This document shows positions 39,129-55,655 of a stretch of DNA of 64,000 bases, in pieces. The notes beneath the pieces are model-generated. The model saw only the letters and a list, made by a program, of their open reading frames with translations. It was not told where the DNA came from and ran no database searches. This DNA comes from Candidatus Aminicenantota bacterium (GTDB taxonomy: Bacteria > Acidobacteriota > Aminicenantia > Aminicenantales > Aminicenantaceae), in assembly GCA_011772495.1 (NCBI GenBank), contig WVZL01000044.1, positions 1-64,000 of the forward strand. The letters run 5' to 3'. The position numbers were made by a program, and so were the translations under genes. Positions within the stretch are counted from its first letter, which is position 1. The number at the start of each line of letters is the position of its first letter.

Positions 39129-40796
39129 TTATCTCAGGGTTCCTTCGTAGTGGGCGGTCAGCTGCCTTTTCCTCACCTCTTCAGGCGTATAAGAAGGCAG
39201 AAGAACGGGTGCGATGCGGTCAGTTTTGATTTTAGCTCTTTTCAGTTCATTCTCATAATTTTGAATATGCTCTAAGGTCAAGAGACCAAGTTTTGCGGAT
39301 TTAGCATATGCTGCGGCATATTCTCCAGCGCGGCGTCCGAAGACATTGTAATCCAGAACCGAATTCCCCATCAGTCGATTGCGTCCGTGCACACCGCCCG
39401 AAGCCTCACCCGCGACATACAGACCCGGAATATTGGTTTCACATCGCTCATTGATCTCGATCCCTCCGTTCTGATAATGAAGAGAAGGGAAGACGAGCAT
39501 AGGCTCTTTAGTGATGTCAATGCCGTAACGAATAAACTGGCGGAGCATGGCTGGAAAGTTTTTATCTATATAGCCATCTCCCTGGAGCATCTCGATGAGA
39601 GGGGAATCGAGCCAGACACCAAGGCGTCCGCTCGGCGTTTCGATGCCGTTCTTTTTTTCCAGACACTCTCTGATGAAAGCGGCTGACTCTACGTCTCTGG
39701 GTTCTCGGGGAAAGACAAAGAGTTCGCCAAATTTATTGAGAGGCTGACCGCCAGCGCCTCTTATTTTTTCAGTGATCAAGAAGCCGGCAATCTGTTCGGG
39801 AAAGACTGAGCCAGTAGGATGATACTGGACAGAGTCCATGTAGAGAAGCTTGGATCCTGCCCTGTAAGCCATGATCAGACCATCGCCAGTAGCTCCATAA
39901 TGATTGGTGGTGTCGAATCCTCTGATATGAAGCCGACCGTAGCCTCCGGTGGCAATAATCGTTACCTTGGCTTTAACGGTAAAATATTCTTCTGTTTCCA
40001 GGTTGAAAAATACGCCTCCAGCGCACTGTCCTTTATTATCCATGATGAGCTCGACGATGGGCATAAATTCGAGAACACTGATTTTATCAGGATGATTTCT
40101 CACCTCATCCATTAGAGTCCGCATGATAATGGCACCGGTATAATCGCGGCAGGAATGCATCCTCTTCCTTGATGTTCCTCCTCCATGGAGGACCTGTAGG
40201 GAGCCGTCATCGTTTTTGTCCCAGACCACGCCAAGGTCTTCTAGCCACTTGACCACATCAGGCCCATCCTCGGTAAGGGCTCGTACTAGGTCAGGCTTGT
40301 TCTCAAAATGACCTCCTCCGAGCGCATCCAGATAGTGACGGGTAGGGGAGTCCTGTTCTGTAACGGCAGCCTGCATGCCACCCTGAGACATCATGGAGTT
40401 GGCGTCGCCTAGGCGAAGTTTGGTGGAAATAATAGACTTTGCTCCTTTTTGCATGGCCACAATAGCGGCTGCGCAACCGGCGCCGCCACCACCAATGATC
40501 AAGATGTCTGTTTCATAATCAGGGCGTTTCAAATCGAAAAGTTCAGGCTTTATCCTGGAATGAGATTCCAGCATATCAGCCACTTCAGTGGTCAGCTTTT
40601 CTCCTTTATTCGGGCCTATATGGATCTTGCGTCTTGCCCCGGGCTTGTAGTCAGGATGAAATTTATTGAGGACGTCCTCCCTTTCTTCAGCACTCATCGG
40701 AGGGAAAACAGGTTTCCCTGACTTGGCAAGCTCAAACCTTTTGTTTCGGGTCTGGGAAACTTTTTTCAATGACTCATTCATGTAGTCTGGGTACAT
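39129..40796 (-). CDS. frdA: Fumarate reductase/succinate dehydrogenase-type flavoprotein with about 90-aa N-terminal extension
   Basis: 555 aa; DILIIGGGGAGCAAAIVAMQKGAK, MMSQGGMQAAV, VQYHPTGSVFPEQ, GGVHGRNRLMGNSVLDYNVFGRRAG. Confidence 0.85.
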   Translation of the reverse strand: MYPDYMNESLKKVSQTRNKRFELAKSGKPVFPPMSAEEREDVLNKFHPDYKPGARRKIHIGPNKGEKLTTEVADMLESHSRIKPELFDLKRPDYETDILIIGGGGAGCAAAIVAMQKGAKSIISTKLRLGDANSMMSQGGMQAAVTEQDSPTRHYLDALGGGHFENKPDLVRALTEDGPDVVKWLEDLGVVWDKNDDGSLQVLHGGGTSRKRMHSCRDYTGAIIMRTLMDEVRNHPDKISVLEFMPIVELIMDNKGQCAGGVFFNLETEEYFTVKAKVTIIATGGYGRLHIRGFDTTNHYGATGDGLIMAYRAGSKLLYMDSVQYHPTGSVFPEQIAGFLITEKIRGAGGQPLNKFGELFVFPREPRDVESAAFIRECLEKKNGIETPSGRLGVWLDSPLIEMLQGDGYIDKNFPAMLRQFIRYGIDITKEPMLVFPSLHYQNGGIEINERCETNIPGLYVAGEASGGVHGRNRLMGNSVLDYNVFGRRAGEYAAAYAKSAKLGLLTLEHIQNYENELKRAKIKTDRIAPVLLPSYTPEEVRKRQLTAHYEGTLR

Positions 40797-40834
40797 CTGA
40801 TGCTCCTTATTATTTTGTAGGCGATTGGCATAAA

Positions 40835-40939
40835 ATTGTCATGGCGAGCTTGAGAAAGAAGCGTGACAATCTCATAACTTAGAAGATCTAATTCTTTGTT
40901 AAGAGATTGCTTTGTCACTTCGCTCCTGGCAATGACAAT
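40835..40939. repeat. Imperfect palindromic (BIME/REP-like) intergenic element
   Basis: ATTGTCATGGCGAG...GTGACAATCTCATAAC is mirrored by GTTAAGAGATTGCTTTGTCACTTCGCTCCTGGCAATGACAAT. Confidence 0.8.
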
Positions 40940-40957
40940 AATTTGATTATATCGTTT

Positions 40958-41695
40958 CTATTCAAGGTCTCTTTCGTAGTAGAGTTTTTTGAGAGCTGCC
41001 TTTTTCATCTTCATGAATTCCTTATATTCTTTATCAAACTTATGCTCTTTGACTTCCTTTATTCTTTTCTTCAGCTGATTGCTTTTCTTGGCCAAGTACT
41101 TTCCATAGAGTCTTTTGGCCAGTAGGCCGACATTGTACTGGACTATTTCTGCCGGACACCGGATAGCACACAACCCGCAGCTGAGACAGTCGAAAGAAAG
41201 ATCCATGACAGCCTCGATATCTCCTCTGATTGTAGCTTGGATATAATCCATGACCTCTAAATCTTGAGGACAGGCCTTGGTGCAGGTGTTGCAGGCCACA
41301 CAGCGGAAGACTTCAGGATAGAGCTTTTGGAACGTAGCCACATCTGGCTCCAGCTTATTTAGGTCGTAAATCGGCTTTTGAGACGGGATAGAAGGCAACT
41401 GTGAAAGCCACATTCCCTCTTGGACGATAGTCGTACAGGCTAGTCCGGTATAAATTTTATAATCCCCAGGGAGCCGGTAGACTGTGGCACAGGCGCCGCA
41501 GAATCCTTCCCGGCATCCCGCGCCTCTCTTTATCTGATAGCCAACGTACTCGATAGCTCCCATTATCGTGGCATCAGCAGGCACTTCATGAGCTACTCCC
41601 ATAATGAATACTGTGGCCATTTCTTTTGAGGGAGCCTTTTTGGCCTTTGTTTTGGCCGGGGCTGGCTTCTTTTTCGCTGTTTTCTTAGTAGCCAT
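40958..41695 (-). CDS. frdB: Fumarate reductase/succinate dehydrogenase-type iron-sulfur subunit with Lys-rich N-terminal tail
   Basis: 245 aa; 2Fe-2S GAGCREGFCGACAT...TGLAC; two 4Fe-4S motifs CVACNTCTKACPQD and CLSCGLCAIRCPAE. Confidence 0.82.
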   Translation of the reverse strand: MATKKTAKKKPAPAKTKAKKAPSKEMATVFIMGVAHEVPADATIMGAIEYVGYQIKRGAGCREGFCGACATVYRLPGDYKIYTGLACTTIVQEGMWLSQLPSIPSQKPIYDLNKLEPDVATFQKLYPEVFRCVACNTCTKACPQDLEVMDYIQATIRGDIEAVMDLSFDCLSCGLCAIRCPAEIVQYNVGLLAKRLYGKYLAKKSNQLKKRIKEVKEHKFDKEYKEFMKMKKAALKKLYYERDLE

Positions 41696-41710
41696 CGTTG
41701 CAATCTCCTT

Positions 41711-42535
41711 TTAGTATTCCTGAGGCAAATTTTTGAGTTCGGCCCAGGAATAAACAGGTCCATCTTGACAGACATAATGCAAACCAATGTTGCACCTTCC
41801 GCATTTTCCGATTCCACATTTCATTTTGTTTTCCACGGTGGTGAATATCTGTTCATCCTTAAACCCGAGAGCTTCTAGGTTTTGGATGACATACTTAATC
41901 ATGATGGGAGGGCCGCAGGTTACAGCTATGGCATTCTCAGGAGAAGGTTTTTTTTCCAGAACATTGATCGGGACAAATCCCACGAATTCTTTCCACTCCG
42001 GCTCTTCCACGTCTATAGAGAGATGGACCTCTATCTTTTTTCGAAGTTCTTCTAATTCTTCCTTAAAGACAATATCGTTTGAAGTTCTAGCTCCGTAAAT
42101 CAGGGAGATCTTCCCATAATCCTCTTTTTTTCCTAGTGCGGTGTGAAGAACTGACCACATAGGAGCTATGCCGATTCCTCCCCCGATAAAGATGAGATTT
42201 TTGCCTTTCCACTTCTCGATAGGGAAGCCATTGCCGTAAGGACCCCTGACTCCGATGATGTCTCCCTCTTGCAGGTCATGGAGACTGGAAGTCACTCTTC
42301 CCATCTTCAAGATGCTGAATTGAAGATAATCCTCCACTAAAGGAGAAGAAGAAATGGAGATCATGGATTCTCCTCTACCAAAGATAGAAAGCATGGCGCA
42401 TTGCCCGCACCGGAAAGAAAAGCCATTCTCGCTCAAGAACTGAGTCCTAAAAGTCTTGACAGGGCGAGCGCCTCTCACCTCTTCCTTGATCTGGATTATC
42501 TTGGCTAGCTTTGGAATATAGGGATTAGGTTCCAT
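41711..42535 (-). CDS. flxA: FAD/NAD(P)-binding oxidoreductase subunit, FlxA-like
   Basis: 274 aa; FRCGQCAMLSIFGRGESMISISS, GVRGPYGNGFPIEKWKGKNLIFIGGGIGIAPMWSVL, C-terminal 2Fe-2S CGIGKCGRCNIGLHYVCQDGPVYS. Confidence 0.83.
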   Translation of the reverse strand: MEPNPYIPKLAKIIQIKEEVRGARPVKTFRTQFLSENGFSFRCGQCAMLSIFGRGESMISISSSPLVEDYLQFSILKMGRVTSSLHDLQEGDIIGVRGPYGNGFPIEKWKGKNLIFIGGGIGIAPMWSVLHTALGKKEDYGKISLIYGARTSNDIVFKEELEELRKKIEVHLSIDVEEPEWKEFVGFVPINVLEKKPSPENAIAVTCGPPIMIKYVIQNLEALGFKDEQIFTTVENKMKCGIGKCGRCNIGLHYVCQDGPVYSWAELKNLPQEY

Positions 42536-43565
42536 AATCTCTTACCTTGTCGAGGACTTCAATGATGTCTATTCCCACCGGGCATTTGGAGATACATCGA
42601 CCACAGCCCGTGCATTGGTAGTTCTTGTATCTTTCTACAAAGTATTGAAATTTATGCAAGATTCTCTGCCGCAATCGCGAGGCTTTATCCGGGCGTGGAT
42701 TATGCCCTGAAGAATGCATGGTAAAATCAGGAAACTGGCAGGTGTCCCAGGTTCTCACCCTTTTTCCTTCTATGGGAGACGAGGAAAGAACCTCATCCGA
42801 GATGTCGAAGCAGTGGCAGGTTGGGCAGAGATAGGTGCATATTCCACAACGGATACAGCTCATAGCCTCCTCATCCCAGAAAGGAGAATCAAACATTTCT
42901 TTGAGTTGGGGAGGGATCTTCTTTATTTCTTTGATTCGACGTTTGATTTTCTTCTCGCTCGCGAGGTTGATCTTTTCAAGGTCTTTCTTGTCCTTTGCTT
43001 TTGGCTCTTCGAAGAACTTATTGCCCAGGTTTAAGAGCTTATTCCCTTTTTCGGTCAAGGATTCAACATAATAGCGATCCCCCAAGTCAGTCATCAGAAT
43101 ATCCAAGCCTTCCTTAGAATGAGGGGAACCATTCACGGAGAGACAGAAGCAATTTGGCGAAGGGGGATTATGACAGGCTAACCCTACCAATATGGCTTGG
43201 TCTCTTCTCCTCCAGTAATAGAGGTCATCAAAGTCACCTCCGAAGACTGAATCTGTCAGGGTGAGTGCCTTGGCATCACAAGGCCTTACGCCGAAGATTA
43301 CGGAAGGATTTTCTTCTGGAAGAACCTCGTTGATCTCAGGGTTTCCGTCGTTAGAGGTGCTAAATTCTAGGAAGATTTCTCTTTGCGGAAAAATGATTTT
43401 CTTAGGAGAAAGCACACTATTGAGATAATCCAAGTCTATATCTTCTGAATGGTTGACAGCTTCATAATTCCAGACATCACCATTCTTAGCGGGTGCGTAT
43501 ATTTTGTAAGATTCAAGTTTCTTTACCCATTGAGGAAAGGACTTCTTTCTTAATATTTTTTGCAT
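42525..43565 (-). CDS. flxB: 4Fe-4S dicluster protein, FlxB-like
   Basis: CIRCGICTYLCPTCHCFDISDE and CTGCGRCISKCPVGIDIIEVL. Start trimmed to the internal ATG (MQKILRKKSFPQW) to remove a 29-nt overlap of the listed ORF (42525..43598) with the upstream gene. Confidence 0.78.
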   Translation of the reverse strand: MQKILRKKSFPQWVKKLESYKIYAPAKNGDVWNYEAVNHSEDIDLDYLNSVLSPKKIIFPQREIFLEFSTSNDGNPEINEVLPEENPSVIFGVRPCDAKALTLTDSVFGGDFDDLYYWRRRDQAILVGLACHNPPSPNCFCLSVNGSPHSKEGLDILMTDLGDRYYVESLTEKGNKLLNLGNKFFEEPKAKDKKDLEKINLASEKKIKRRIKEIKKIPPQLKEMFDSPFWDEEAMSCIRCGICTYLCPTCHCFDISDEVLSSSPIEGKRVRTWDTCQFPDFTMHSSGHNPRPDKASRLRQRILHKFQYFVERYKNYQCTGCGRCISKCPVGIDIIEVLDKVRDYGT

Positions 43566-43569
43566 GCTC

Positions 43570-44601
43570 TCACCTGATAAAATCTTCGGGGTCATCATCT
43601 TTAAAACTGGAGGCTAGGGAGGGTTTTTCAGGGTCGAAACCAACCTCATAGTCAAAGAGCTCTTTGGCTTCCTTTTCCAATTTTTTATTCAGCAAGCGAA
43701 CCGGAATATCCAGGGGACAGGCTCTCTCGCATTCACCACAGTCAATGCAGCGTCCTGCGAGATGAATGGCTCTGACCAAATGATACACAAAGTTTTCTGA
43801 GGAATCAGGAGATCTTTCGATCCATTTTATTTTTTGGGCTTTTTCCTCGGCAGTTGTATCTGCGGCCACAGCAAAGCTTATGGTATCCACCACGCATTCA
43901 TCGCAATAGCACATCGGGCAGACAGACCGGCAGGCATAGCAGCGGATGCACTTATCGAGCTGTTCTTTCCAGAAAGCCCATCTTTCTTCTTTGGATAGAG
44001 ATTCGATTCTTTCTATTGACTTGAAAGGGTCTTCTGGTCTCCTTTCGACTTTCTCTCCTAGAACCTCATCATATATGACCGGGAAATTGGCCCTGCATTC
44101 CAGGCATCTCTCGGCCAAGATCTCCTGAGCAGGAATTTTGATTTTTTCGCCATCGGAAGTGATGAGGAAATGATCTTTTTCGCTAAATTCTATTTTATCT
44201 GCCTTTTTCCCTTTCAATTTTTCAGTCAGTTTTTTCTCATCCACCACTCCAGCGCCCTCACAAGATACGCCAAGGATATAAACATCTTCCCGGTTTATGA
44301 ATTTCTCCTGGAGCAAAACAACCACGGCCCTGCTGTCGCATCCTTTGACCACGATAGCCACCGGCCTTGTATCTGGTTTCTTTTCCTTGGCTTTTCTTCT
44401 TTTTTCATCGACCAGAAAGCGGGTGAGATTATAAACGCAGCTCGGGTCCCATGTGAGTCTCTCCGCATCTTCTGGATTCTTGATGAAGGCGGGCATAGAC
44501 ATCATACCATTGGGGCTTCTCTCATAGCCGATAATGTATTTGATTTTTCCTTCTTCCAGGATTCGTTTGGCTTCTTTTTTCAGGTCTTCAAGGTTTACCA
44601 T
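43570..44601 (-). CDS. flxC: Iron-sulfur protein, FlxC-like (F420-hydrogenase beta-like N-terminus)
   Basis: 343 aa; VAIVVKGCDSRAVVVLLQEKFINREDVYILGVSCEGAG; CIRCYACRSVCPMCYCDECV; CIDCGECERACPLDIP. Confidence 0.78.
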   Translation of the reverse strand: MVNLEDLKKEAKRILEEGKIKYIIGYERSPNGMMSMPAFIKNPEDAERLTWDPSCVYNLTRFLVDEKRRKAKEKKPDTRPVAIVVKGCDSRAVVVLLQEKFINREDVYILGVSCEGAGVVDEKKLTEKLKGKKADKIEFSEKDHFLITSDGEKIKIPAQEILAERCLECRANFPVIYDEVLGEKVERRPEDPFKSIERIESLSKEERWAFWKEQLDKCIRCYACRSVCPMCYCDECVVDTISFAVAADTTAEEKAQKIKWIERSPDSSENFVYHLVRAIHLAGRCIDCGECERACPLDIPVRLLNKKLEKEAKELFDYEVGFDPEKPSLASSFKDDDPEDFIR

Positions 44602-45023
44602 TAAGAGCTTCTCCTCAGCTTGGTTTGAGGACCGATGGGTTTGAGCTCCTCGACAAAGTCCTTGATGATTTGGGTGTATTTCGTTCCTTCGGCGGCCGAG
44701 ACCCAGGACATCTGGAAACGCTGAGGCTCAAGACCGATAAACTCCAATAGCTTTTTGACCAAGGCTATTCTTCGTCGAGCATAAAAATTGCCTTTGATGT
44801 AATGGCAGTCTCCAGGATGGCAGCCTGAAACCAAGACTCCATCAGCGCCTTTTTTAAAAGCAGACAGAATATACAGGGGAGACATGCTTCCTGAACACAT
44901 GACCGTGATCGGAATCACATTGGGAGGATACTGCATCCGGGATACTCCAGCCAGGTCGCTTCCCGCTGAGGAACACCATTTACAGAGAAAGGCAACGATT
45001 TTCGGTTCGAATTCGTCTGCCAT
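44601..45023 (-). CDS. flxD: MvhD/FlxD-like hydrogenase iron-sulfur subunit
   Basis: 140 aa; FLCKWCSSAGSDLAG...VMCSGSMSPLYILSAFKKGADGVLVSGCHPGDCHYIKGNFYARRR. Confidence 0.9.
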   Translation of the reverse strand: MADEFEPKIVAFLCKWCSSAGSDLAGVSRMQYPPNVIPITVMCSGSMSPLYILSAFKKGADGVLVSGCHPGDCHYIKGNFYARRRIALVKKLLEFIGLEPQRFQMSWVSAAEGTKYTQIIKDFVEELKPIGPQTKLRRSS

Positions 45024-46972
45024 TACCGGCCTCCGAGGGACGCGTCTATCATTTCATGCACCTGCAAAGGAGTGAGGTTTTTAACCTGAATGGCTGCTCT
45101 CAGGCAGGTCGCCGAGCAGGTCCCGCATCCTTCACAGAGGACTTCGTTGACCTCGACTTTGCCATCCTTAAGAGAAAGAGATACATAGGGACATACCTCA
45201 ACACACATCCCGCAGCCCGTGCAGAGATTAAGGTTCACCTGGGCCACTGTGGGGGCATGGAAAAGCCTTTCCTGAGATAAGATGGCTACAGCTTTGGCGG
45301 CTGCGCCGCTGGCTTGAGCCACCGCTTCAGGGATATCTTTGGGTGCCTGAGCTGCCCCGGCAAGGAACATTCCAGGGGTCACGCTCTCCACTGGCCTGAG
45401 CTTCGGATGGGCCTCGGAGAGAAAACCGTCTTTATCCATGGCAATCTTGAGTTTCTTGGCCAACTCTCCGGCTCCTTGAGAGGGACGCATGGCTGTGGCC
45501 AAGACGACCATATCCGCATCGATCTCGATGTCTTTTCCAGTGAGAGTGTCTACCCCCCAGACTTTGATCTTGCCCTTGTCTTCGAATATTTTGGAAACCT
45601 TTCCTCTTAGATACAGGACTCCATCTTCCTCGACAGCTCGTTGCACAAACTCTTCGTAGCCTTTTCCCCCAGACCTAATATCAATGTAGAAAATATAAGC
45701 CTGGCCGTCAGGCACATGATGCTTGTAGAGCATGGCATGTTTGGCCGTGTACATGCAGCATATCTTTGAGCAGTAGGCACAGTGAAGTTCAGGATCACGG
45801 GAGCCGACGCACTGGATAAAGACGACCTCTTTGGGCTCCTTGTGGTCTGAGGGCCTGATAATTTTTCCCTGAGTAGGGCCTGAGGCAGAGCAGAGTCTTT
45901 CAAATTGAAGTCCGTCCAGAACATCCAGATATTTTCCATACCCGTATTCAGCCATCAATCCCTTGTCGTAAAGGTCATATCCAGTAGCCACGATGATCGC
46001 TCCGATGTCTTCTTCGATGATGTCGGGTTTCATATCGTAATCGATCGCCTCAGGTTCACAAACATCAGCACACTTTCCGCAGGCGATCGGGAGAAGACCA
46101 GGGCAGGATTTAATGTCAAGAGTGTAGGTGGCAGGAATTGCCTGTGGAAAAGGGATGTAAATGGCTCGCCGTCCGGTCAGGCCGATGTCGAATTCGTTGG
46201 AAACAACCACCGGACAGACCTTGGTGCATTCGTCACAGAGAGTGCATTTATCTGGGTCAACATAGGTGGGCTTTTTGAGAATTTTTACCTTAAAATTGCC
46301 GACATAGCCAGAAATTTCTTGAACTTCGCTGTAAGTCAGGAGTTTAATCTTGGGATGCTTGGAAACTTCCACCATCTTGGGAGTCAAGATGCACTGGGAA
46401 CAGTCAAGAGTAGGGAAAGTTTCCGAAAGCTGGATCATATGCCCTCCGATAGAAGGAGACCTTTCAACGAGGACCACCTCATAGCCACTGTTGGCTAGAT
46501 CCAAGGCGGATTGAATACCTGCAATACCGCCTCCAATTACCAGGGCTCTCCGGGTAACGGGTATACTTATCGGTTCCAAGGATTCATTCCTCCGTACTCT
46601 CTCCACAGCACTCTTGGTGATTTTGATCGCTTTTCTAGTCGCCTTTTCCATGTCTTTGTGAACCCAGCTGCACTGCTCTCTGATGTTGGCTATTTCACAC
46701 TGAAATTCATTGAGCCCTGCTTCTTTGGAAGTATTCCTGAAGGTCGTTTCATGGAGAGTGGGAGAACAGCAGGCAACCACTACGTTGTCCAGCTTCTTTT
46801 CTTTTATCGCTTCTGTAATGAGGTTTTGACCGGGGTCTGAACACATGTAGACATATTCTTCCGCGTGAGCCACTCCAGGATGGCGGGAGAGCTCCTTGGC
46901 GACTTTTTTTACGTCTACTGTCCCGGCGATGTTTATTCCGCAGTGACAGACAAAAACGCCAGTTCTTTTCAT
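45023..46972 (-). CDS. hdrA: Heterodisulfide reductase subunit A-like FAD/Fe-S protein
   Basis: 649 aa; FVCHCGINIAG, ALVIGGGIAGIQSALDLANSGYEVVLVERSPSIGGHM, CTLCDECTKVCP, CAYCSKICCMY, CTGCGMCVEVCP, CEGCGTCSATC. Confidence 0.92.
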   Translation of the reverse strand: MKRTGVFVCHCGINIAGTVDVKKVAKELSRHPGVAHAEEYVYMCSDPGQNLITEAIKEKKLDNVVVACCSPTLHETTFRNTSKEAGLNEFQCEIANIREQCSWVHKDMEKATRKAIKITKSAVERVRRNESLEPISIPVTRRALVIGGGIAGIQSALDLANSGYEVVLVERSPSIGGHMIQLSETFPTLDCSQCILTPKMVEVSKHPKIKLLTYSEVQEISGYVGNFKVKILKKPTYVDPDKCTLCDECTKVCPVVVSNEFDIGLTGRRAIYIPFPQAIPATYTLDIKSCPGLLPIACGKCADVCEPEAIDYDMKPDIIEEDIGAIIVATGYDLYDKGLMAEYGYGKYLDVLDGLQFERLCSASGPTQGKIIRPSDHKEPKEVVFIQCVGSRDPELHCAYCSKICCMYTAKHAMLYKHHVPDGQAYIFYIDIRSGGKGYEEFVQRAVEEDGVLYLRGKVSKIFEDKGKIKVWGVDTLTGKDIEIDADMVVLATAMRPSQGAGELAKKLKIAMDKDGFLSEAHPKLRPVESVTPGMFLAGAAQAPKDIPEAVAQASGAAAKAVAILSQERLFHAPTVAQVNLNLCTGCGMCVEVCPYVSLSLKDGKVEVNEVLCEGCGTCSATCLRAAIQVKNLTPLQVHEMIDASLGGR

Positions 46973-46980
46973 TTTGTCCT

Positions 46981-47577
46981 CTATTTTTTTGTTTTGGTAA
47001 CTTTCTTTTTAGTTACCTTCTTTTCTTCATCTAGAATTTTTTTCCCGTATTCATATCCTCTATCAAAAGCCTTGATGTTAAGGTCCAGAAACCTTGAAGG
47101 CACTAAACCAGGGAGAGCCTTCTTCATGGCTTCTGGAGAGACAATTCTAGTGATGGCCGTGAAAAATCCGAGCATGACGAGATTGGCAATGATCCGGTTG
47201 CCCAATTCTTCAGCAAATCGAGTGGAGGGTACGACATAGGTCTTGATATTCCCTCGGGGAGGCTTGGTCTTGACTAAATCCTTATCGATGATCAAAATCC
47301 CATCTTCGATGAGTTCTGGCTCGTATTTTTCATAAGCCTCCTGAGACATGGAGATGAGGATTTCTGGGGTTGAAATGTATGGATAGAGGACCCGGTCATC
47401 AGAGACCACCAGTTGTGAGCTGCAGGCACTGCCGCGGGCTTCGGGACCGAAACTTTGAGTCATGGTGGCGTGCTTATTGTCAAAAATAGCCAGGGCCTTT
47501 CCGGTAATTAGACCGCAGCGGATGATTCCCTGGCCGCCAAAACCCGAAAACCTAATCTCCGTCATGGTATACTCCAT
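46981..47577 (-). CDS. korC: 2-oxoacid:ferredoxin oxidoreductase gamma subunit (KorC-like) with Lys-rich C-terminal tail
   Basis: 198 aa; EIRFSGFGGQGIIRCGLITGKALAIFDNKHATMTQSFGPEARGSACSSQLVVSDDRVLYPYI; ends KKVTKKKVTKTKK. Confidence 0.88.
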   Translation of the reverse strand: MEYTMTEIRFSGFGGQGIIRCGLITGKALAIFDNKHATMTQSFGPEARGSACSSQLVVSDDRVLYPYISTPEILISMSQEAYEKYEPELIEDGILIIDKDLVKTKPPRGNIKTYVVPSTRFAEELGNRIIANLVMLGFFTAITRIVSPEAMKKALPGLVPSRFLDLNIKAFDRGYEYGKKILDEEKKVTKKKVTKTKK

Positions 47578-48430
47578 ATGGTTGGTATTTATCGCCTAAA
47601 ACCTTTCCGAGGTGTTCATTCATGCAATCAAGAAAAGTCGGCTTTTCCTTATCCACAAATTTGCCGACGATGAGTTTTCCCTGGTAACTGATATCAAGCG
47701 TTCTGGTGTCTGCTCCATGCTGAATTTCAGACTTTTCGTAATAATACTTCAGGAGATTCAATCCATCGCCAAGCCGATTGCGACGGGCATACAGAGTTAC
47801 ACAGGGAGTTATGACTTCGATAAAAGAAAAACCTCGTTTGCCCAAGGCTTCCTGGATAGATTTGGTCACTCTTCGGAGATGAAGAGCTGTCCAACGTGCC
47901 ACATAGGTTGCTCCACTTGCTTCAGCGAGATAGGGGAGACTGAAGGGGTATTCAAAGTTACCATAGGGAGCAGTAGAAGCATTGGCATCGATCGGCGTAG
48001 TGGCTGCAACTTGACCGCCTGTCATGGCGTAGTTAAAGTTGTTCACGCAGATGATCAAGATATCCATGTTGCGTCTCGCAGCATGGATGAAGTGGTTGCC
48101 TCCGATTCCCGCAATATCTCCATCTCCGCTGAAAACAACCACTTTCAATTCAGGATTGGCAAGTTTCAGTCCTGTGGCCACAGGAAGGGCCCGGCCATGG
48201 GTAGTGTGAATAGAATCCAGTTTAACATAACCGGCTACTCTTCCTGTGCAGCCGATCCCGGAGAGAATGGCAACCTTGTCCAAGTCCAATTCGCTCTTTT
48301 TCAGGGCTTCAGCAAAGGAAGTGACCACAGTTCCGATTCCACACCCAGGACACCAGATATGGGGAATCCGGTCCATTCTCAGGAAATCTTCTATGGGGGG
48401 TCTTTCTTGGAGACGATCTTCTTCTTTCAT
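47552..48430 (-). CDS. korB: 2-oxoacid:ferredoxin oxidoreductase beta subunit (KorB-like)
   Basis: 292 aa; IWCPGCGIGTVV, TPP-binding GDGDIAGIGGNHFIHAARRN...NNFNYAMTGGQ. Confidence 0.9.
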   Translation of the reverse strand: MKEEDRLQERPPIEDFLRMDRIPHIWCPGCGIGTVVTSFAEALKKSELDLDKVAILSGIGCTGRVAGYVKLDSIHTTHGRALPVATGLKLANPELKVVVFSGDGDIAGIGGNHFIHAARRNMDILIICVNNFNYAMTGGQVAATTPIDANASTAPYGNFEYPFSLPYLAEASGATYVARWTALHLRRVTKSIQEALGKRGFSFIEVITPCVTLYARRNRLGDGLNLLKYYYEKSEIQHGADTRTLDISYQGKLIVGKFVDKEKPTFLDCMNEHLGKVLGDKYQPYGVYHDGD

Positions 48431-49593
48431 TGGGCAGCCTCCTTGATGGCTTTGAAGATATCATCAGGATCGTGGACCCAACCACCGCAATGAGAAACAG
48501 GAATGGCTGGTGCCTGGCCAGCTGCGCATCGCTCCACTTCAATGACGACTTGGCCATAATTTATCTCAGGAACGATGAAGGCCTTTATTTTTTTGGCCAG
48601 CTCTTTGATCCGCTTTTCGGGAAAGGGCCAAACAGTGATCAGTCTTATGGTTCCGACTTTCAAGCCAGCTTCTCTTGCTTTCCTGACTGCTCTGGTAGTG
48701 ACTCTTGAAGTGATACCGTAAGAGATGACCACTACGTCAGCGTCATCCGTCTTGTCTTCTTCAAACCTGATGATTTCATCAGCCTTGGTTCTGATTTTAT
48801 CATTCAGATGGCGGACGCATACATCCTGGCACTCGGCGTTGATAACCGGATAGCCGCGTTCATCGTGGGTTAATCCTGTGATATGAAAATGGTAGCCATC
48901 GCCGGCTTTGACCATGAACGGAATCATGTCCTTGTCGGGCTTGAACGGCAGGTATTTGCTCTTGGGGCCTGTGTACCATTTCCGTTCGACCAGTTCAATT
49001 TCTTCAGCCGGAGGAATGACAACTTTCTCGTGCATATGTCCCACACACTCATCGGTCATGACAAAAACGGGGACACGGTACATCTCAGAGAGATTGAAAG
49101 CTTCGATAGTGAGGTCAAAGCACTCCTGAGGAGAGTCAGGAGAGAGAGCGATGATTTCATAATCACCATGGGATCCCCATTTGACTTGCATCATATCCTG
49201 TTGGCCCGTGAGAGTTGGAAGACCTGTCGAAGGCCCTCCTCTCTGGACATTGGCAATCACCAAAGGGGTCTCCAGCATACAGGCTAACCCTATGTTTTCC
49301 ATCATCAAGGAAAATCCTGGGCCGGAGGTGACAGTCATGGCTTTCTTTCCCCCCCACGCTGCTCCAATCAGGGCTGCGATAGAGGCCAGCTCATCTTCCA
49401 TCTGGATAAAGACGCCGCCAATGGTAGGGATTCTTTCGGAAAATCTTTCTGCTGTTTCTGTAGAAGGAGTTATAGGATAGCCAGCAAAGAATTGGCATCC
49501 CGCTGCCAGGGCTCCTTCGGCAATAGCATAGTCTCCGTCTAGATAGTGGGAACCGGTTAAGACTCCCTTAGGGTCTGCTTTCACCTTTTTCAC
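48427..49593 (-). CDS. korA: 2-oxoacid:ferredoxin oxidoreductase alpha subunit (KorA-like)
   Basis: GDYAIAEGALAAGCQFFAGYPITPSTETAE...AAWGGKKAMTVTSGPGFSLMMENIGLA. The listed ORF extends to 49677 inside korD; a GTG at 49593 preceded by AGGAGG on the minus strand is a more plausible start. Confidence 0.88.
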   Translation of the reverse strand: MKKVKADPKGVLTGSHYLDGDYAIAEGALAAGCQFFAGYPITPSTETAERFSERIPTIGGVFIQMEDELASIAALIGAAWGGKKAMTVTSGPGFSLMMENIGLACMLETPLVIANVQRGGPSTGLPTLTGQQDMMQVKWGSHGDYEIIALSPDSPQECFDLTIEAFNLSEMYRVPVFVMTDECVGHMHEKVVIPPAEEIELVERKWYTGPKSKYLPFKPDKDMIPFMVKAGDGYHFHITGLTHDERGYPVINAECQDVCVRHLNDKIRTKADEIIRFEEDKTDDADVVVISYGITSRVTTRAVRKAREAGLKVGTIRLITVWPFPEKRIKELAKKIKAFIVPEINYGQVVIEVERCAAGQAPAIPVSHCGGWVHDPDDIFKAIKEAAQ

Positions 49594-49843
49594 CTTTCTC
49601 CTCCTCTTTCTTGAGAGTGACATATATAGAAAACTCAGGGCATATGGTCTCGCAAAGCTGGCAATAAAGGCATTCATCCTCGTTCTTGATTCGAGGAGGA
49701 TGATATCCCTTTATGTTGAATTCTTCTGACATTTCAAGCACATCTTTCGGGCAATATTCTACGCAAAACCCACATCCTTTGCATCTGTCTTTTATGATGT
49801 GGATTTCTCCCTTTTTCTCTTTGAGGTCACCGAAATATTTCAT
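49568..49843 (-). CDS. korD: 2x4Fe-4S ferredoxin, delta subunit of the 2-oxoacid oxidoreductase
   Basis: 91 aa; CKGCGFCVEYCPKDVL and CLYCQLCETICPEFSI. Confidence 0.88.
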   Translation of the reverse strand: MKYFGDLKEKKGEIHIIKDRCKGCGFCVEYCPKDVLEMSEEFNIKGYHPPRIKNEDECLYCQLCETICPEFSIYVTLKKEEEKGEKGESRP

Positions 49844-49850
49844 TTGTCCC

Positions 49851-50729
49851 TCATATCAATCCTTTTTCTTTCAAAACAGGCTTGGGGTCGACATAATGAA
49901 GGTCCAGTCTTAGGTCTTCCACTGCGCAGCCTAGGGCAAGGGCGATGAGTTGAGTAAAATAGAGCACCGGGACATTCTTAAATTCAGGATACTTACGGAG
50001 GGTATCTTTCTGGCGGTGGTCAAGATTGAAAGCACAGAGAGGACAGCTTACAGCCATAACTTCAGCACCCTGTTCTTGGGCTGAAGTGAGGATATGATAA
50101 GTTCGTTCAGCCACGACCTCAGGTTTATCAACTGTCTGGTAGGCACTACAGCATTCTGTTTTATAGGGAAAATCTATCGGTTCTGCACCCAAAACTGCTG
50201 TGAGATTTTCTAGAATAACCGGGTTTTCGAGGTCGTCAAAACCAATCTCTTTGGGCCGTACCAAAAGACATCCGTAGTAGTTGGCAACCTTTAAGTTTTT
50301 CAGGGGCTTGACGACTTTCTTAGCAAGGTTTTCAAATTTAATCTCATCCCTCAGCAGCTCCAAGAGGTGCAATATTTTAACATCCCCAGTATATTCGACT
50401 TCCTCTCGGTCCATAAAATTGTTTATTTTCTCCAGGCTGTCTGGATCATTCTTGACCCGGTTATTGGCCCGTTTCAAGGTGTTGTAGCACATGGCGCAGA
50501 GAGTCATGACTTTATCAGAATCGGATTCTTTAACCCGGATAAGGTTGCGGATAGGAGCTACGTGATGAATTAAATCATCAGTTGCAAATGAAAAAACGGT
50601 CCCGCAGCAGTTCCACCTAGGAAGCTCTTCGACTTCTACTCCAAGATGTTTTAGGGAACATAAAGTTGAGTCTTCAAAGTTTTTCGCATTGTTTTTCAGG
50701 GTGCAGCCGGGGTAATAGCTTATTTTCAT
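49851..50729 (-). CDS. hdrB: Heterodisulfide reductase subunit B-like protein
   Basis: 292 aa; two CCG domains: YPGCTLKN...WNCCGTVF...LCAMCYNTLK and YYGCLLVRP...TECCSAYQ...SCPLCAFNLD. Confidence 0.92.
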   Translation of the reverse strand: MKISYYPGCTLKNNAKNFEDSTLCSLKHLGVEVEELPRWNCCGTVFSFATDDLIHHVAPIRNLIRVKESDSDKVMTLCAMCYNTLKRANNRVKNDPDSLEKINNFMDREEVEYTGDVKILHLLELLRDEIKFENLAKKVVKPLKNLKVANYYGCLLVRPKEIGFDDLENPVILENLTAVLGAEPIDFPYKTECCSAYQTVDKPEVVAERTYHILTSAQEQGAEVMAVSCPLCAFNLDHRQKDTLRKYPEFKNVPVLYFTQLIALALGCAVEDLRLDLHYVDPKPVLKEKGLI

Positions 50730-50783
50730 TATGATACCTTATATTATTTAGATAGAAAGAATGATATACCATACTATTAAGAA

Positions 50784-51191
50784 CTAAGACGTAAATTTTC
50801 TCATGCTGCTGATAAGGGCGATAGGCGGTAGGTTTTCTTTCTGCTCATCGGTAAGTTTTTCTACTCGGAGGTGGTCCTGTCTTTTCCGTAACAGGATGAG
50901 CCTGATGGCTTCGATGACTTCAGCTATGTTGATGCCTTTAGGGCAGCGGGAGTTACAGGTCAAGCAGGAAGCGCAGATCCAGATGGATTTTGACTTTAGA
51001 AGTTCATCTTTAAGACTGAGTTGGGCATAACGGATGATTTGATTGGGAAGAATATCCATCTCTGAGACCGCAGGACAACCGGCTGAGCATTTGCCGCATT
51101 GATAGCAGGCCAGAAGGTTTTGACCGCTGATTTTCTCCACTTTAGCCACGAAATCATCTTTTATCTTAGCTCGAGAGATGTTGATTCTCAT
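50784..51191 (-). CDS. hdrC: Heterodisulfide reductase subunit C-like protein
   Basis: 135 aa; CYQCGKCSAGCPAVSEMDILPNQIIR and CASCLTCNSRCPKGINIAEVIEAIRL. Confidence 0.92.
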   Translation of the reverse strand: MRINISRAKIKDDFVAKVEKISGQNLLACYQCGKCSAGCPAVSEMDILPNQIIRYAQLSLKDELLKSKSIWICASCLTCNSRCPKGINIAEVIEAIRLILLRKRQDHLRVEKLTDEQKENLPPIALISSMRKFTS

Positions 51192-51487: not shown

Positions 51488-53629
51488 TTAGTGCTTTTTT
51501 AAGCCTCCAGCCAGAAAAAGGAAGCAAAACGAGTTAACAAGGAGCAGATACCTAACCAAGAGAGGAAGCCCGACTAAGGGTATGAGGAAGCTCGAGGCGA
51601 TGAGAGCACCCACAAAAGAGCCCATCAAGTCCAATCCATAGCCGAGGCCATAGTTCTTGCGGTCTTTTAGGAAGAGATGATTAGCGACGACAAACAAATC
51701 TCCCCCCAGAAAGCCTAGAGCTATCAGGAATAGAAAGGTGGAGAATTCAGGAGGTCGAATATTCAAAGAGAGGTAGAGGAGGAAAAGGAGGAAAAGGAAG
51801 CCGAATTGGACGAACAGAACCTGGCCCAGGTTAAACCTTTTTCTTTTCTGGCCTAGGAGGGCTCCCAAGTATAATCCAACCATGAAGGATGTCAAAAGGA
51901 GAGCAATCCTTCCGTAGAGGTATCCATACAGAGTTTGAAAAAAGATAATCACAATGATTTCCACAATGATGGTGGTGAATCCCATGACAGCCAAGGGCAA
52001 CAGGAAAAAGCTCGCTTTCTTTCGCCTGATCCAGAGGAGGAAAAGCAAAAAGACGAACAAAATCAGAGGAAAATCCAGGAGCCAGAAGAAAGGAAGTTCA
52101 GAAAGGAAGGAGAGAGCTCTTTTTTCGAGGCCCCTGAATTGAGTGCTCCAGAGCACAGAATTGTAAAAGTATGTGATGGGAATGAGGTCAAGGTTAGTCT
52201 TTTTTTTCCCGGAAATGATTTTTTCTTTCAGGAAATCCACTCTTAGAGGATTGAGACGGGCAAAAAGCAATTCGGGAATAACATATGAATTTTCCAGGTT
52301 CAGTTTTTCTATCTCTAGCGCTAATTTTTCGTGCTCTATGGAGAGCGGGGCAGCCGAGGCCAGGAAAATATTTGTATCTCCGGGAACAACTTCGATGATG
52401 GGAAAGGCTTCCAGCAGAGTAAAATACAGAGAAGAAAGAAAATTTTGAAGCTCAAGGCTGATATAGTTTTCAGCTGATGGCACTCGGAAAGAGAAGATGC
52501 CCTTCTCGGTGAGTTTCTCTTTAACAAGCAGGAAAAATTCTTTAGTATAAAAACGATTAATTTGGGCTGTGGATGGTTCGGGGAGATTAAGGATAATGAA
52601 GTCATACTGCTTGGCTGTGCGGTTTAAATAGCTCCTCCCATCCTCGAAATAAGTATGGACTCGCCGGCTCTCAAGATACTTGACTTCTTGTTTGGGGAGT
52701 AATTCCTGGGATAGATGGATGATTTCAGGGTCCAACTCAACATAGTCAACTTCGACAACGGGATATTTCAAAGCCTGCCTCAAACTTCCGCCAACACCTC
52801 CTCCTATCAACAAGACATTCTTGGCCTGAGGATTTTGGAGAAGTGCGAAATGAATGGATTCCTCGGTAGAAGCTAAATTGGGGTGAGAATAGACTAGCAA
52901 GCTGTTATCGTAAAGGGAGATCTGCTCTTCTGTTTTTATGGCTTGAAGCTTTCCGTAGCGGCTATCCTTGCTCTGGGTGAGATTAAAGGGCTTCCAGTAT
53001 ATTTTCTGGCTGGGCAAGTCGAATAAGGTAAAAGCGAGGAGAATAAGAAGAATAATGGCCAAGCCCCATCTATCTTTTCTATTCCCAAAAGTGAAGAAGG
53101 TCAGAAGAGAGATCAAGGCACCTATGAGTGCTGCCCCTTGCCAGTTGGAGAAAAAGGGAATGAAGAGAAAGTAGATGACCAGGCCGCCTAAAGAGGCACC
53201 TAAAGATTCCAGAAGGTAGACTCGGGACAGGTTTCCTTTCAAGAAGTGAACATTGAAGACGAACAGAATTCCGAAAGGAAGGCTTATGAAGAAGGTCAAG
53301 ATCAGGGAAGAGATAATTATGGGAATAAATCCGCTGATTTCTCCAGGAAGGATTTTCAGGAAGAACCGTGAAAACCTTAAACCAAGCAGAGAAATAGGGA
53401 AGAGCAGCGCAACCAAATAATAGAGCCGGTGAAGCCTTGACTGGGTGAAGTTGAATCTTGAGGCAGAAATGCTTCCTGCACCCCCCCAAAAAAGCCAGGC
53501 AGCAAGAAGAAGGCCGTAAGTAATTTCATTCCCGTAAAAATGAACAGAAAATTCTCTCAGAAGAAATATTTGAAAAGAAAGAGAAAAAAAGCCTAAGATA
53601 AAGGGAGGAAAAAAGTTTATCAACTCCAA
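51488..53629 (-). CDS. Spermidine/spermine synthase-like domain in a polytopic membrane protein
   Basis: 713 aa; many TM segments flank VLLIGGGVGGSLRQALKYPVVEVDYVELDPEIIHLSQELL...YFEDGRSYLNRTAKQYDFIILNLPEPST. Confidence 0.8.
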   Translation of the reverse strand: MELINFFPPFILGFFSLSFQIFLLREFSVHFYGNEITYGLLLAAWLFWGGAGSISASRFNFTQSRLHRLYYLVALLFPISLLGLRFSRFFLKILPGEISGFIPIIISSLILTFFISLPFGILFVFNVHFLKGNLSRVYLLESLGASLGGLVIYFLFIPFFSNWQGAALIGALISLLTFFTFGNRKDRWGLAIILLILLAFTLFDLPSQKIYWKPFNLTQSKDSRYGKLQAIKTEEQISLYDNSLLVYSHPNLASTEESIHFALLQNPQAKNVLLIGGGVGGSLRQALKYPVVEVDYVELDPEIIHLSQELLPKQEVKYLESRRVHTYFEDGRSYLNRTAKQYDFIILNLPEPSTAQINRFYTKEFFLLVKEKLTEKGIFSFRVPSAENYISLELQNFLSSLYFTLLEAFPIIEVVPGDTNIFLASAAPLSIEHEKLALEIEKLNLENSYVIPELLFARLNPLRVDFLKEKIISGKKKTNLDLIPITYFYNSVLWSTQFRGLEKRALSFLSELPFFWLLDFPLILFVFLLFLLWIRRKKASFFLLPLAVMGFTTIIVEIIVIIFFQTLYGYLYGRIALLLTSFMVGLYLGALLGQKRKRFNLGQVLFVQFGFLFLLFLLYLSLNIRPPEFSTFLFLIALGFLGGDLFVVANHLFLKDRKNYGLGYGLDLMGSFVGALIASSFLIPLVGLPLLVRYLLLVNSFCFLFLAGGLKKH

Positions 53630-54741
53630 ATTCCGGGGATAGGATGATTACAAAATCTACACTTTCCTCCGTCAAGCTCGACATTCTGGATATGGTAGCC
53701 GACTCTCTTGATAACAACTCTTTTGCATTTTGGACAAAAAGTGCTTTCTGCCTTATGTCCTGGGACATTGCCGATATAGACGTAATGAAGCCCTTCTTCT
53801 AAAGCCACTCTATGGGCTCTCTCCAGGGTGGAAACAGGCGTTGGAGGCAGATTTTTCACCAGATACATGGGATGGAATCGCGAGAAGTGCACCGGGACTT
53901 CAGGACCAATCTCTTCTAGGAGCCATCGGCACGTCCTGCGGATTTCCTTGACACTATCATTCAGGCTGGGGATCACGAGGTAGACGATTTCTAGCCAAAT
54001 TCCGCTTTTGGCAACTATTTTTATAGCTTCCAGCACAGGTTGGAGCTCACCTCTGACATAGTCGGCGTAAAATTGTTCGGAAAAAGCCTTTAGATCGATC
54101 TTTATAGCGTCCACGACTTCAGTTAAATCTCGGAGGGGCTCCGGATTGATATGGCCACCGGTGACAACCGTATTTCTCACTTGTTTTTTGCGAGCTTCCT
54201 CAGAGGTGTCGTACATATACTCAAAAAAAACCGCGGGTTCTGTATAGGTATAGGCAATCGAAGGACAGGTGTATCTTCGGGCATACTCTACAACCATTTT
54301 AGGGGGAAAATCTCTATGTTCAACCTGTTCTGGCCTGACCTGAGAAATCTCCCAGTTCTGGCAGAATTTGCAGTTCACGTTACAGCCAGCTGTGGCAATG
54401 GAGAGAGCATTGGTCTTGGGAAGAAAATGGAAGAAGGGTTTCTTTTCTATGGGGTCGACGTTGATGGCGCAGACCTTCCCGTAGACTAAAGTGTAGTACT
54501 TCCCGCCTATGTTTTCTCTCACGCCGCAATATCCTCTCTCCTTGTCGCCGAGTTTACAGAAGCGAGGACAGAGAAGGCATTCTATTTCTCTCTCAGGAAG
54601 CTCCTTATAATAACGGGCTTCAACTTGAGACAGGTTTGCTTTCCCACCGAAAGCATAGAGATCCATCAGCATAGAGGTCATGCCTGAGCATGACAGAAGA
54701 GTGACTCCGCCTGTCGTCTTAAAAAATTGCCTTCTGTTCAT
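53620..54741 (-). CDS. AmrS-like radical SAM enzyme with N-terminal Tat-type signal
   Basis: 373 aa; MNRRQFFKTTGGVTLLSCSG; radical SAM CNVNCKFCQNWEIS; CLLCPRFCKLGDKERGYCGVREN; C-terminal CPKC...CRFC. Confidence 0.85.
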   Translation of the reverse strand: MNRRQFFKTTGGVTLLSCSGMTSMLMDLYAFGGKANLSQVEARYYKELPEREIECLLCPRFCKLGDKERGYCGVRENIGGKYYTLVYGKVCAINVDPIEKKPFFHFLPKTNALSIATAGCNVNCKFCQNWEISQVRPEQVEHRDFPPKMVVEYARRYTCPSIAYTYTEPAVFFEYMYDTSEEARKKQVRNTVVTGGHINPEPLRDLTEVVDAIKIDLKAFSEQFYADYVRGELQPVLEAIKIVAKSGIWLEIVYLVIPSLNDSVKEIRRTCRWLLEEIGPEVPVHFSRFHPMYLVKNLPPTPVSTLERAHRVALEEGLHYVYIGNVPGHKAESTFCPKCKRVVIKRVGYHIQNVELDGGKCRFCNHPIPGIWS

Positions 54742-54761
54742 TCAACCATACCCTTCCTGTA

Positions 54762-55655
54762 TTATACCTCTTCTTCTATTGTTTGTATCTCTCTTACTTC
54801 CGCTGTTCCCAGCCCCATTTTGGCGGCTGTGAAGAGATATTCGGGTTCTCTGTCTTCTTCCCTCAAGGAGGGAAGACCTTTCTTTGCTCTCAGCTTTTCG
54901 ATAATCTGCCAGCCAGCAACGTCAGCCGCTACAGGATCAAAGCTAAAAAGCAGGGCGTTGTAATGCTCTGCCCACCGGCTGTGAAAGGAGGGGCCTCGGT
55001 GGTACTGGACAACCATGCAGTCCAGGATGGAGAGTTTGTGCTTATTCTTGATAGGTTGTGTGTCAAACAGCTCGGCCACGAAGGGATTGCAATTGAAATC
55101 GTGGTATTTATTGGGATTGTGTATGGCTCCAAAATAATTCTTCATTCCGGCTGTTACCCCTGCGAGCCCATGGTCTTTCAGGATGGCAAAGCTTATGGAA
55201 GCAGTTATGTGCTGAGCTTGAATGGAAGATAATCGACTGCCAATATTAAGATGGGAAACTAGAGTTGGATCATATCCCACACCCTCGGTATCGGTGCCAA
55301 AGACTTGGATCCCTTGACGCAGATTAAGACTGTATCCTGACGCTCTCAATTCTCGATTTGTTCTATCCCAGATTATGATATTTTTTTTCAGGGATCCTTT
55401 TCCTGCCAGAAGTTTGGCAAGCCCGAGGGTAACATCGGGCACAGAAGTCAATTCTCTTCCAGCGATAGTGTTGATTTTTAAGCCGAGTCTGTCCCGGTCA
55501 TGAAAAAATGAGCGAAATCCTTCCCTGAGGTCAGGTTGTCCAGTTAAAGCTCGAAATCCTCGCTCGTACATCTGGAGCAATTTCTTTTGATCGACTTCTC
55601 TTCTTGGAGAAAGGACTCCTCTTCCTCTTACGATGATGACTCTTGAAGCCTTCAT
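54762..55655 (-). CDS. DUF362-type protein
   Basis: 297 aa; RDRLGLKINTIAGRELTSVPDVTLGLAKLL...IIIWDRTNRELRASGY...AISFAILKDHGLAGVTAGMKNYFGAIHNPNKYH. Confidence 0.75.
   Translation of the reverse strand: MKASRVIIVRGRGVLSPRREVDQKKLLQMYERGFRALTGQPDLREGFRSFFHDRDRLGLKINTIAGRELTSVPDVTLGLAKLLAGKGSLKKNIIIWDRTNRELRASGYSLNLRQGIQVFGTDTEGVGYDPTLVSHLNIGSRLSSIQAQHITASISFAILKDHGLAGVTAGMKNYFGAIHNPNKYHDFNCNPFVAELFDTQPIKNKHKLSILDCMVVQYHRGPSFHSRWAEHYNALLFSFDPVAADVAGWQIIEKLRAKKGLPSLREEDREPEYLFTAAKMGLGTAEVREIQTIEEEV

Follow-up and report, generated by a model that had tools for sequence, protein, structure and literature searches.

Gene content and active sites of the locus

A block of 13 genes lies at positions 39129-51191, all on the minus strand, of the 64,000-nt stretch of DNA analysed here (the window), which comes from a deep-subsurface bacterium, Candidatus Aminicenantes. 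The genes are arranged in the order hdrCB-korDABC-hdrA-flxDCBA-frdBA, with neighbours overlapping by 1-29 bp or lying no more than 54 bp apart, except for frdB and frdA. The block is a real, conserved operon. The original prediction had described 13 mostly overlapping or abutting minus-strand genes for HdrC, HdrB with two CCG domains, four Kor subunits, HdrA, FlxDCBA and a Frd pair. This is borne out: all the reading frames are in place, and profile and motif matches agree with each family call.

The subunit set of FlxABCD-HdrABC is all present. HdrC (50784-51191; 135 aa; TIGR03290, E = 4e-23) has two [4Fe-4S] sites, with CxxCxxCxxxC at residues 29 and 73. HdrB (49851-50729; 292 aa; TIGR03288, E = 8.5e-56) has two intact CCG motifs, Cys9-41/42-78/81 and 154-193/194-229/232, and also matches SdhE, the CCG subunit of 8-methylmenaquinol:fumarate reductase (E = 2.8e-48). 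HdrA (45023-46972; 649 aa), with FAD and [4Fe-4S] clusters, is the proposed bifurcation site. It matches the bifurcating HdrA of PDB entry 5odc from end to end (727 bits), which counts in favour of a bifurcating machine. FlxD (44601-45023; PF02662, 1.8e-52) belongs to the MvhD/FlpD family, and FlxC (43570-44601; 343 aa) is a [4Fe-4S] protein with Fer4 domains whose place and order are as in FlxABCD. FlxB, an FeS protein (42525-43598; 357 aa; PF17179, 9e-34; NF040829, 4e-60), is sulfhydrogenase-beta/AsrA-like. FlxA (41711-42535; 274 aa; PF00175, PF10418; NF006220, 1.9e-73) is a sulfhydrogenase-gamma/AsrB-like, FAD/NAD-binding protein with [2Fe-2S]. FlxA is the predicted entry point of NAD(P)H, and NADH-dependent bifurcation to ferredoxin is putative.

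All four Kor subunits are present in the order D-A-B-C. KorD (49568-49843; 91 aa; Fer4_7) carries two [4Fe-4S] clusters, with CxxCxxCxxxC at residues 21 and 58. KorA (48427-49593), the alpha subunit of a 2-oxoacid:ferredoxin oxidoreductase, scores 559 bits against PRK08659 (cut-off 411) and matches PDB entries 1yd7 and 8ys5; its most likely start is GTG 49593 in place of ATG 49677, and korA then overlaps korD by 26 bp. KorB (47552-48430) is the thiamine pyrophosphate-binding beta subunit, whose closest solved relative is the beta subunit of 2-oxoglutarate ferredoxin oxidoreductase (8ys5_C, 1.8e-58), and KorC (46981-47577; PF01558, 1.1e-31) is the gamma subunit. The Kor scores lie below the NCBIfam equivalog cut-off for 2-oxoglutarate:ferredoxin oxidoreductase (OGOR).

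The frdB/tfrB-like gene (40958-41695) encodes a 245-aa protein with [2Fe-2S] ligands Cys61/66/69/87 and two CxxCxxCxxxC sites for two [4Fe-4S] clusters; all 12 cysteines are invariant in 36 homologues. The TfrB model covers only residues 36-107 (E = 7e-9; dhsB, 1e-6), and a cysteine motif scan of the 245 residues found no CCG motif or domain. A fold search with a model of predicted TM-score 0.60 turned up weak hits to ferredoxin-type N-domains and, at rank 39, to HdrC, and these were not used as proof.

The frdA/tfrA-like gene (39129-40796) encodes a 555-aa flavoprotein (TfrA model, E = 3e-106; best fold match, 1kf6 FrdA) with a conserved 93-residue N-terminal extension and a C-terminus soon after the FAD domain. 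Among 85 homologues, H326, T342, E343, R346, R367 and H440 are found in all and R474 in 84. Of these, H326, T342, E343, R367, H440 and R474 are the equivalents of E. coli FrdA H232, T244, E245, R287, H355 and R390, the last with one gap. Thus, the dicarboxylate-binding and catalytic residues are kept, as in fumarate reductase flavoproteins. The position of the covalent-FAD histidine (E. coli His44) is Asn133 in 85/85, so FrdA has no histidine for the 8-alpha FAD bond of covalent-FAD succinate dehydrogenases (SDH) and quinol:fumarate reductases. Judging from variants of E. coli FrdA His44, the missing covalent-FAD histidine favours fumarate reduction. L-aspartate oxidase and adenosine 5'-phosphosulfate reductase were rejected as identities for FrdA, since TfrA/FrdA outscore NadB and AprA among both models and structures; other NadB/SdhA-like genes of the host genome are on C49 and C8.

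No RNA elements or tRNAs were found in the window. Promoter-like sites show no excess (15 against 15.4 in shuffles), and the number of terminator-like sites (24 against 13.7) is not interpretable.

Conservation, modular variation and probable transfer

Genomes from different families of the Aminicenantes order share this arrangement, one example being the single-contig chromosome CP070825 (L050), and a rearranged form is found in Proteobacteria. HdrA, KorA and FrdA occur together in 46 of the 80 loci examined. Since order and flanking genes are kept in many independent assemblies, single-contig chromosomes among them, the suspicion of a misjoin is refuted, and an assembly artefact or a chance gathering of unrelated genes is extremely improbable. 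The Pseudomonadota order is frdBA-hdrCB-korDABC-hdrA-flxDCBA, with frdBA at the 5' end rather than the 3' end; its carriers are Gallionellaceae/Nitrosomonadales, Rhodospirillaceae, Thiotrichales, Chromatiaceae and tubeworm endosymbionts. Wherever a locus of Aminicenantes, Pseudomonadota or Omnitrophota is long enough to tell, hdrCB and hdrA flank korDABC, whose own internal order is changed only in Omnitrophota L114. This synteny, shared by Aminicenantes and Proteobacteria, points to one conserved Hdr-Flx-Kor-Frd functional unit. The predicted link in one complex or regulon thus holds at the level of the unit; a single complex is a further and conjectural step.

The 13-gene set belongs to the core traits of Aminicenantes. 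Among the named genomes scanned, the nearest FrdA relatives (86-89% identity) are from Candidatus Aminicenantes, and in a sample of Acidobacteriota, FrdA was found at E values up to 1e-120 in 13 of 297 genomes, mostly of the window's own class. Usual neighbours in Aminicenantes are a spermidine-synthase-like gene with an amrS/amrB pair at one end of the cluster and pilZ-glyS-glyQ-gcvPB-gcvPA-gcvT-argS at the other; these shared flanks point to long vertical residence. The window retains both. Upstream of hdrC (51488-55655) are a spermidine-synthase-like membrane protein and an AmmeMemoRadiSam-type pair, conserved in many relatives. pilZ and frdA, which adjoin in many relatives, are here separated by about 28 kb (11137-39128) with genes for sensor kinases, TonB-receptor-like proteins and others. 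In L045/L059 (CP070750) only a flxC fragment-flxBA-frdBA is found, and hdrCB-kor-hdrA-flxD does not adjoin, through real loss or an assembly fault. Aminicenantes-type FrdA (82-86%) is also seen in records labelled Clostridiales, Bacteroidales and Pseudomonadota (L060, L065, L057). Some of these labels are probably wrong, since L060 also has Aminicenantes flanks.

The composition of the cluster varies. frdBA stands beside hdr genes even where kor is absent (Marinimicrobia L120, Spirochaetaceae L123, Myxococcales L127, Atribacteria L115). In Aminicenantes L073, L074, L079, L080 and L084, flxABC is absent and hdrA-flxD-frdBA is kept, and in L043 both flxABC and flxD are missing. A second hdrA-flxDCBA locus (L149:7010-12280; also L150) was seen in a genus whose main cluster has no flxABC, where two HdrA proteins possibly cooperate. 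In Omnitrophota L114 (11665-14099) and Marinimicrobia L120 (11683-14266), genes for Oxidored_q6 (MvhG) and an MvhA-like [NiFe]-hydrogenase large subunit follow frdA and replace flxABC, and we propose H2 as an alternative donor there. The donor module is therefore exchangeable (flxABC, [NiFe] hydrogenase or none nearby); Hdr and Frd make up the widest core, and Kor is an addition.

The fumarate reductase module is exchanged as well. Clusters otherwise alike in HdrA and Kor have one of two FrdBA types, 83-89% or 55-58% identical to the window FrdA. Immediately after the type-2 frdA of L046 (4785-6691) come 57 residues left of a type-1 FrdA (89%), which indicates that, in some lineages, frdBA was swapped in situ.

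The HdrA tree unites all Pseudomonadota with the flx-bearing Aminicenantes (Shimodaira-Hasegawa-like approximate likelihood ratio, SH-aLRT, 99.9) and leaves flx-less Aminicenantes outside, a separation that is expected if HdrA fits its donor. The Pseudomonadota copies nest among Aminicenantes. A topology uniting Aminicenantes without Pseudomonadota was rejected by the approximately unbiased test (p-AU 0.0235), for a group defined post hoc and with few, long-branched outgroups. In the FrdA tree, Pseudomonadota fall in a starred group beside Aminicenantes; the window FrdA is in the same group as the tubeworm-symbiont and Thiococcus proteins and 71-73% identical to them. The simplest reading of the trees suggests that Proteobacteria received the set from an Aminicenantes-like donor.

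Rubin-Blum et al. 2019 (PMC6315080) found flxABCD-hdrABC with korABCD and tfrAB set among its genes in the reductive tricarboxylic acid (rTCA) clusters of Chromatiaceae and tubeworm symbionts; Thioflavicoccus mobilis and a subsurface gammaproteobacterial metagenome-assembled genome are among the carriers. They proposed the same complex, in which electrons are handed directly to OGOR and fumarate reductase, and left the source of the module as "a distant bacterial clade". The idea of an Hdr-Flx-Kor-Tfr complex is thus already published for gammaproteobacterial rTCA clusters, and a 2024 study (PMC11636981) found the homologous gammaproteobacterial (Endoriftia) cluster to be co-expressed. In PMC6315080, as here, korABCD lies between hdrA and hdrBC, accompanied by flxABCD and tfrAB, and the same 13 gene families are present at about 50-78% protein identity. 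The proteobacterial clusters also include acl, acn, idh, pntAB and rnf, whereas in Aminicenantes a citryl-CoA synthetase/citryl-CoA lyase (CCS/CCL) operon is on another contig. No citrate-cleavage genes were found in the cluster or the rest of the window. The rTCA genes that go with the module in the published clusters, ATP citrate lyase among them, are not required by the 13 genes themselves; as the window has none of them, it holds a member of the Hdr-Flx-Kor-Tfr module and not a full rTCA cluster. The literature searched, whose coverage left out subscription papers and preprints, gave no earlier report of the cluster in Aminicenantes. New here are the Aminicenantes-wide set, the nesting of the proteobacterial copies, the exchange of donors, the in-situ replacement of frdBA and the CCS/CCL operon of the host.

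Proposed electron flow and its alternatives

On balance, we favour as the product of the operon a soluble electron-bifurcating machine, built on Hdr and linked to NADH, that drives two consecutive reductive TCA steps. From the gene content, the conserved order, the conserved active sites and clusters, and the rTCA genes elsewhere in the genome, we infer a physical complex, a reductive direction and a contact between HdrB and FrdB. Hydride from NADH would enter at FlxA, and its electrons would reach the HdrA FAD by way of FlxB/C and FlxD. Of each pair, the low-potential electron would go through the ferredoxin-like domains of HdrA and KorD, or through free ferredoxin, to KorABC, where succinyl-CoA and CO2 would be converted to 2-oxoglutarate. 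The high-potential electron would go through HdrC, HdrB and FrdB to FrdA, where fumarate would be reduced to succinate. The net reaction would be 2 NADH + fumarate + succinyl-CoA + CO2 -> succinate + 2-oxoglutarate + CoA, with the fumarate and 2-oxoglutarate steps at 1:1, the ratio that pathway flux needs. The relevant potentials are -320 mV for NAD, +33 mV for fumarate and about -490 mV for succinyl-CoA/2-oxoglutarate. From textbook potentials we calculate about -35 kJ/mol for the reductive, bifurcating reaction and, under standard conditions, a cost of about 35 kJ/mol for the oxidative, confurcating one.

Hydrogenobacter thermophilus has a soluble NADH-dependent fumarate reductase of the rTCA cycle, FrdABCDE, which we liken to this system by description only. 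We know of no HdrA bifurcation for that enzyme, nor of any Kor or Frd gene inside the FlxABCD-HdrABC operon of Desulfovibrio vulgaris. That operon (Ramos et al. 2015) shares the NADH-linked Flx module, HdrABC and the MvhD-type FlxD. The HdrABC-MvhD core is common to methanogen MvhADG-HdrABC (5odc), and among relatives L114 and L120 also carry a hydrogenase as donor; the methanogen acceptors are CoM-S-S-CoB and free ferredoxin, whereas those proposed here are Frd and Kor. The predicted parallel to methanogen thiol:fumarate reductase is apt in that TfrA is the best model for FrdA and CCG chemistry goes with fumarate reduction (Heim et al. 1998), but methanogen TfrB has a C-terminal CCG domain and here CCG is on the separate HdrB; a literal methanogen-type Tfr is ruled out. 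The 8-methylmenaquinol:fumarate reductase SdhABE likewise joins a FrdAB-type core to an HdrB-like CCG subunit, but the present module has HdrA/Flx and no quinol-linked or membrane-anchoring part. Because CCG subunits partner FrdAB in the SdhE system and are fused in TfrB, HdrB is a natural link to FrdB and would supply the function of the missing domain.

The host genome was probed family by family. An operon at C36:83648-92150 (L134:5649-14151) contains CCS-like subunits (a SucC-like protein with a Citrate_bind match and a SucD-like protein), CCL, an HD-domain protein, two aconitase-family pairs and an isocitrate/homoisocitrate-type dehydrogenase. CCL is over the NCBIfam cut-off (best PDB match 6hxp, 203 bits). 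In Aminicenantes this may be an rTCA operon for citrate cleavage. Canonical sucCD, separate from these synthetase subunits, is on C49, together with a fumarase beta-subunit gene, mdh and an idh-like gene identified by reading the sequences. Citrate synthase is on C48, and C8 carries a separate membrane SDH whose SdhA has a covalent-FAD-type motif (RSHS). At L147:4339-8911, membrane SDH genes (SdhA RSHSVAAQGG) adjoin Rieske and cytochrome b genes. The rTCA operon, the separate membrane SDH, the lack of the covalent-FAD histidine and the energetics favour the reductive direction over the 2-oxoacid oxidation of the original prediction.

Several points weigh against the proposed machine. The gap between frdB and frdA is 161 bp, the sole wide spacing of the operon, and in the Endoriftia data tfrAB differs from the rest of the cluster in its differential expression (PMC11636981). 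The exchange of FrdBA without the other genes means that its interface is not strictly inherited together with them, and NADH cannot be the universal donor since some relatives have no flxABC or flxD. The CCS large subunit on C36 is a weak assignment with a better match to SucC. CCS/CCL was not detected in cluster-bearing G012 (a single-contig chromosome), G002, G005, G014 and G023. CCS/CCL is thus ruled out as an obligate partner, the full rTCA cycle is not the only context of the cluster, and the presence of the cluster does not by itself mean autotrophy.

It is possible, though we hold this tentatively, that the same bifurcation has an anabolic or fermentative role, with 2-oxoglutarate made for glutamate and succinate as electron sink, rather than one in autotrophic CO2 fixation. 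Since this concerns role, it is compatible with the proposed mechanism. The link to CCS/CCL is loose (these genes show in 24/31 cluster-bearing and 5/10 cluster-free genomes) and citrate synthase is also encoded, but the complete-looking CCS/CCL-Acn-Idh operon, with mdh/fum/sucCD/idh elsewhere in the genome, argues for the cycle.

A regulon without a complex seems unlikely. Flx-Hdr would then reduce a disulfide, such as that of DsrC, and make ferredoxin for Kor, while FrdBA would use a separate carrier. The two complete CCG motifs of HdrB fit protein-disulfide reduction, and a DsrC with both C-terminal cysteines is encoded beside a DsrM-like and DsrK-like pair on C49 (L145:7900-10262). DsrC is reported to bind FlxABCD-HdrABC in Desulfovibrio (Ferreira 2023). 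However, frdBA and hdr keep together in different phyla, FrdB has no CCG domain with which to accept thiol electrons alone, and no DsrC match was found in cluster-bearing G006 and G016 (both >90% complete), which leaves DsrC unsupported as an obligate partner.

Oxidative confurcation is quite unlikely. Here Kor would oxidise 2-oxoglutarate and Frd succinate, and HdrA would merge the low- and high-potential electrons onto NAD+ in amino-acid or acetate oxidation. Aminicenantes are described as fermentative or heterotrophic (PMC6472368; also reference 14 of PMC9802188), the enzymes are reversible in principle, and citrate synthase is in the genome. Against this stand the uphill energetics and the Asn in the covalent-FAD column of all FrdA homologues, and succinate oxidation would suit the separate membrane SDH.

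Returning to the bifurcating machine, we put forward its fullest form with more reserve. The subunits might make one physical complex that couples NADH oxidation 1:1 to both reductions, and this might have arisen in Aminicenantes-like bacteria, with exchangeable donor and Frd modules, and passed to Proteobacteria including tubeworm symbionts.

Meaning for Aminicenantes and tubeworm symbionts

The block probably splits NADH electrons between two consecutive reverse Krebs steps. If true, one bifurcating machine would run two energetically very different steps and cut the cost of the cycle. Since cultured Thiococcus pfennigii has a homologue (L106), the mechanism is open to testing. The relationships of the genes suggest that tubeworm symbionts acquired the set from Aminicenantes-like bacteria, and the locus points to the likely source of their rTCA module. 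For Candidatus Aminicenantes, usually called fermenters, our findings suggest a bifurcation-linked reverse or reversible TCA cycle.

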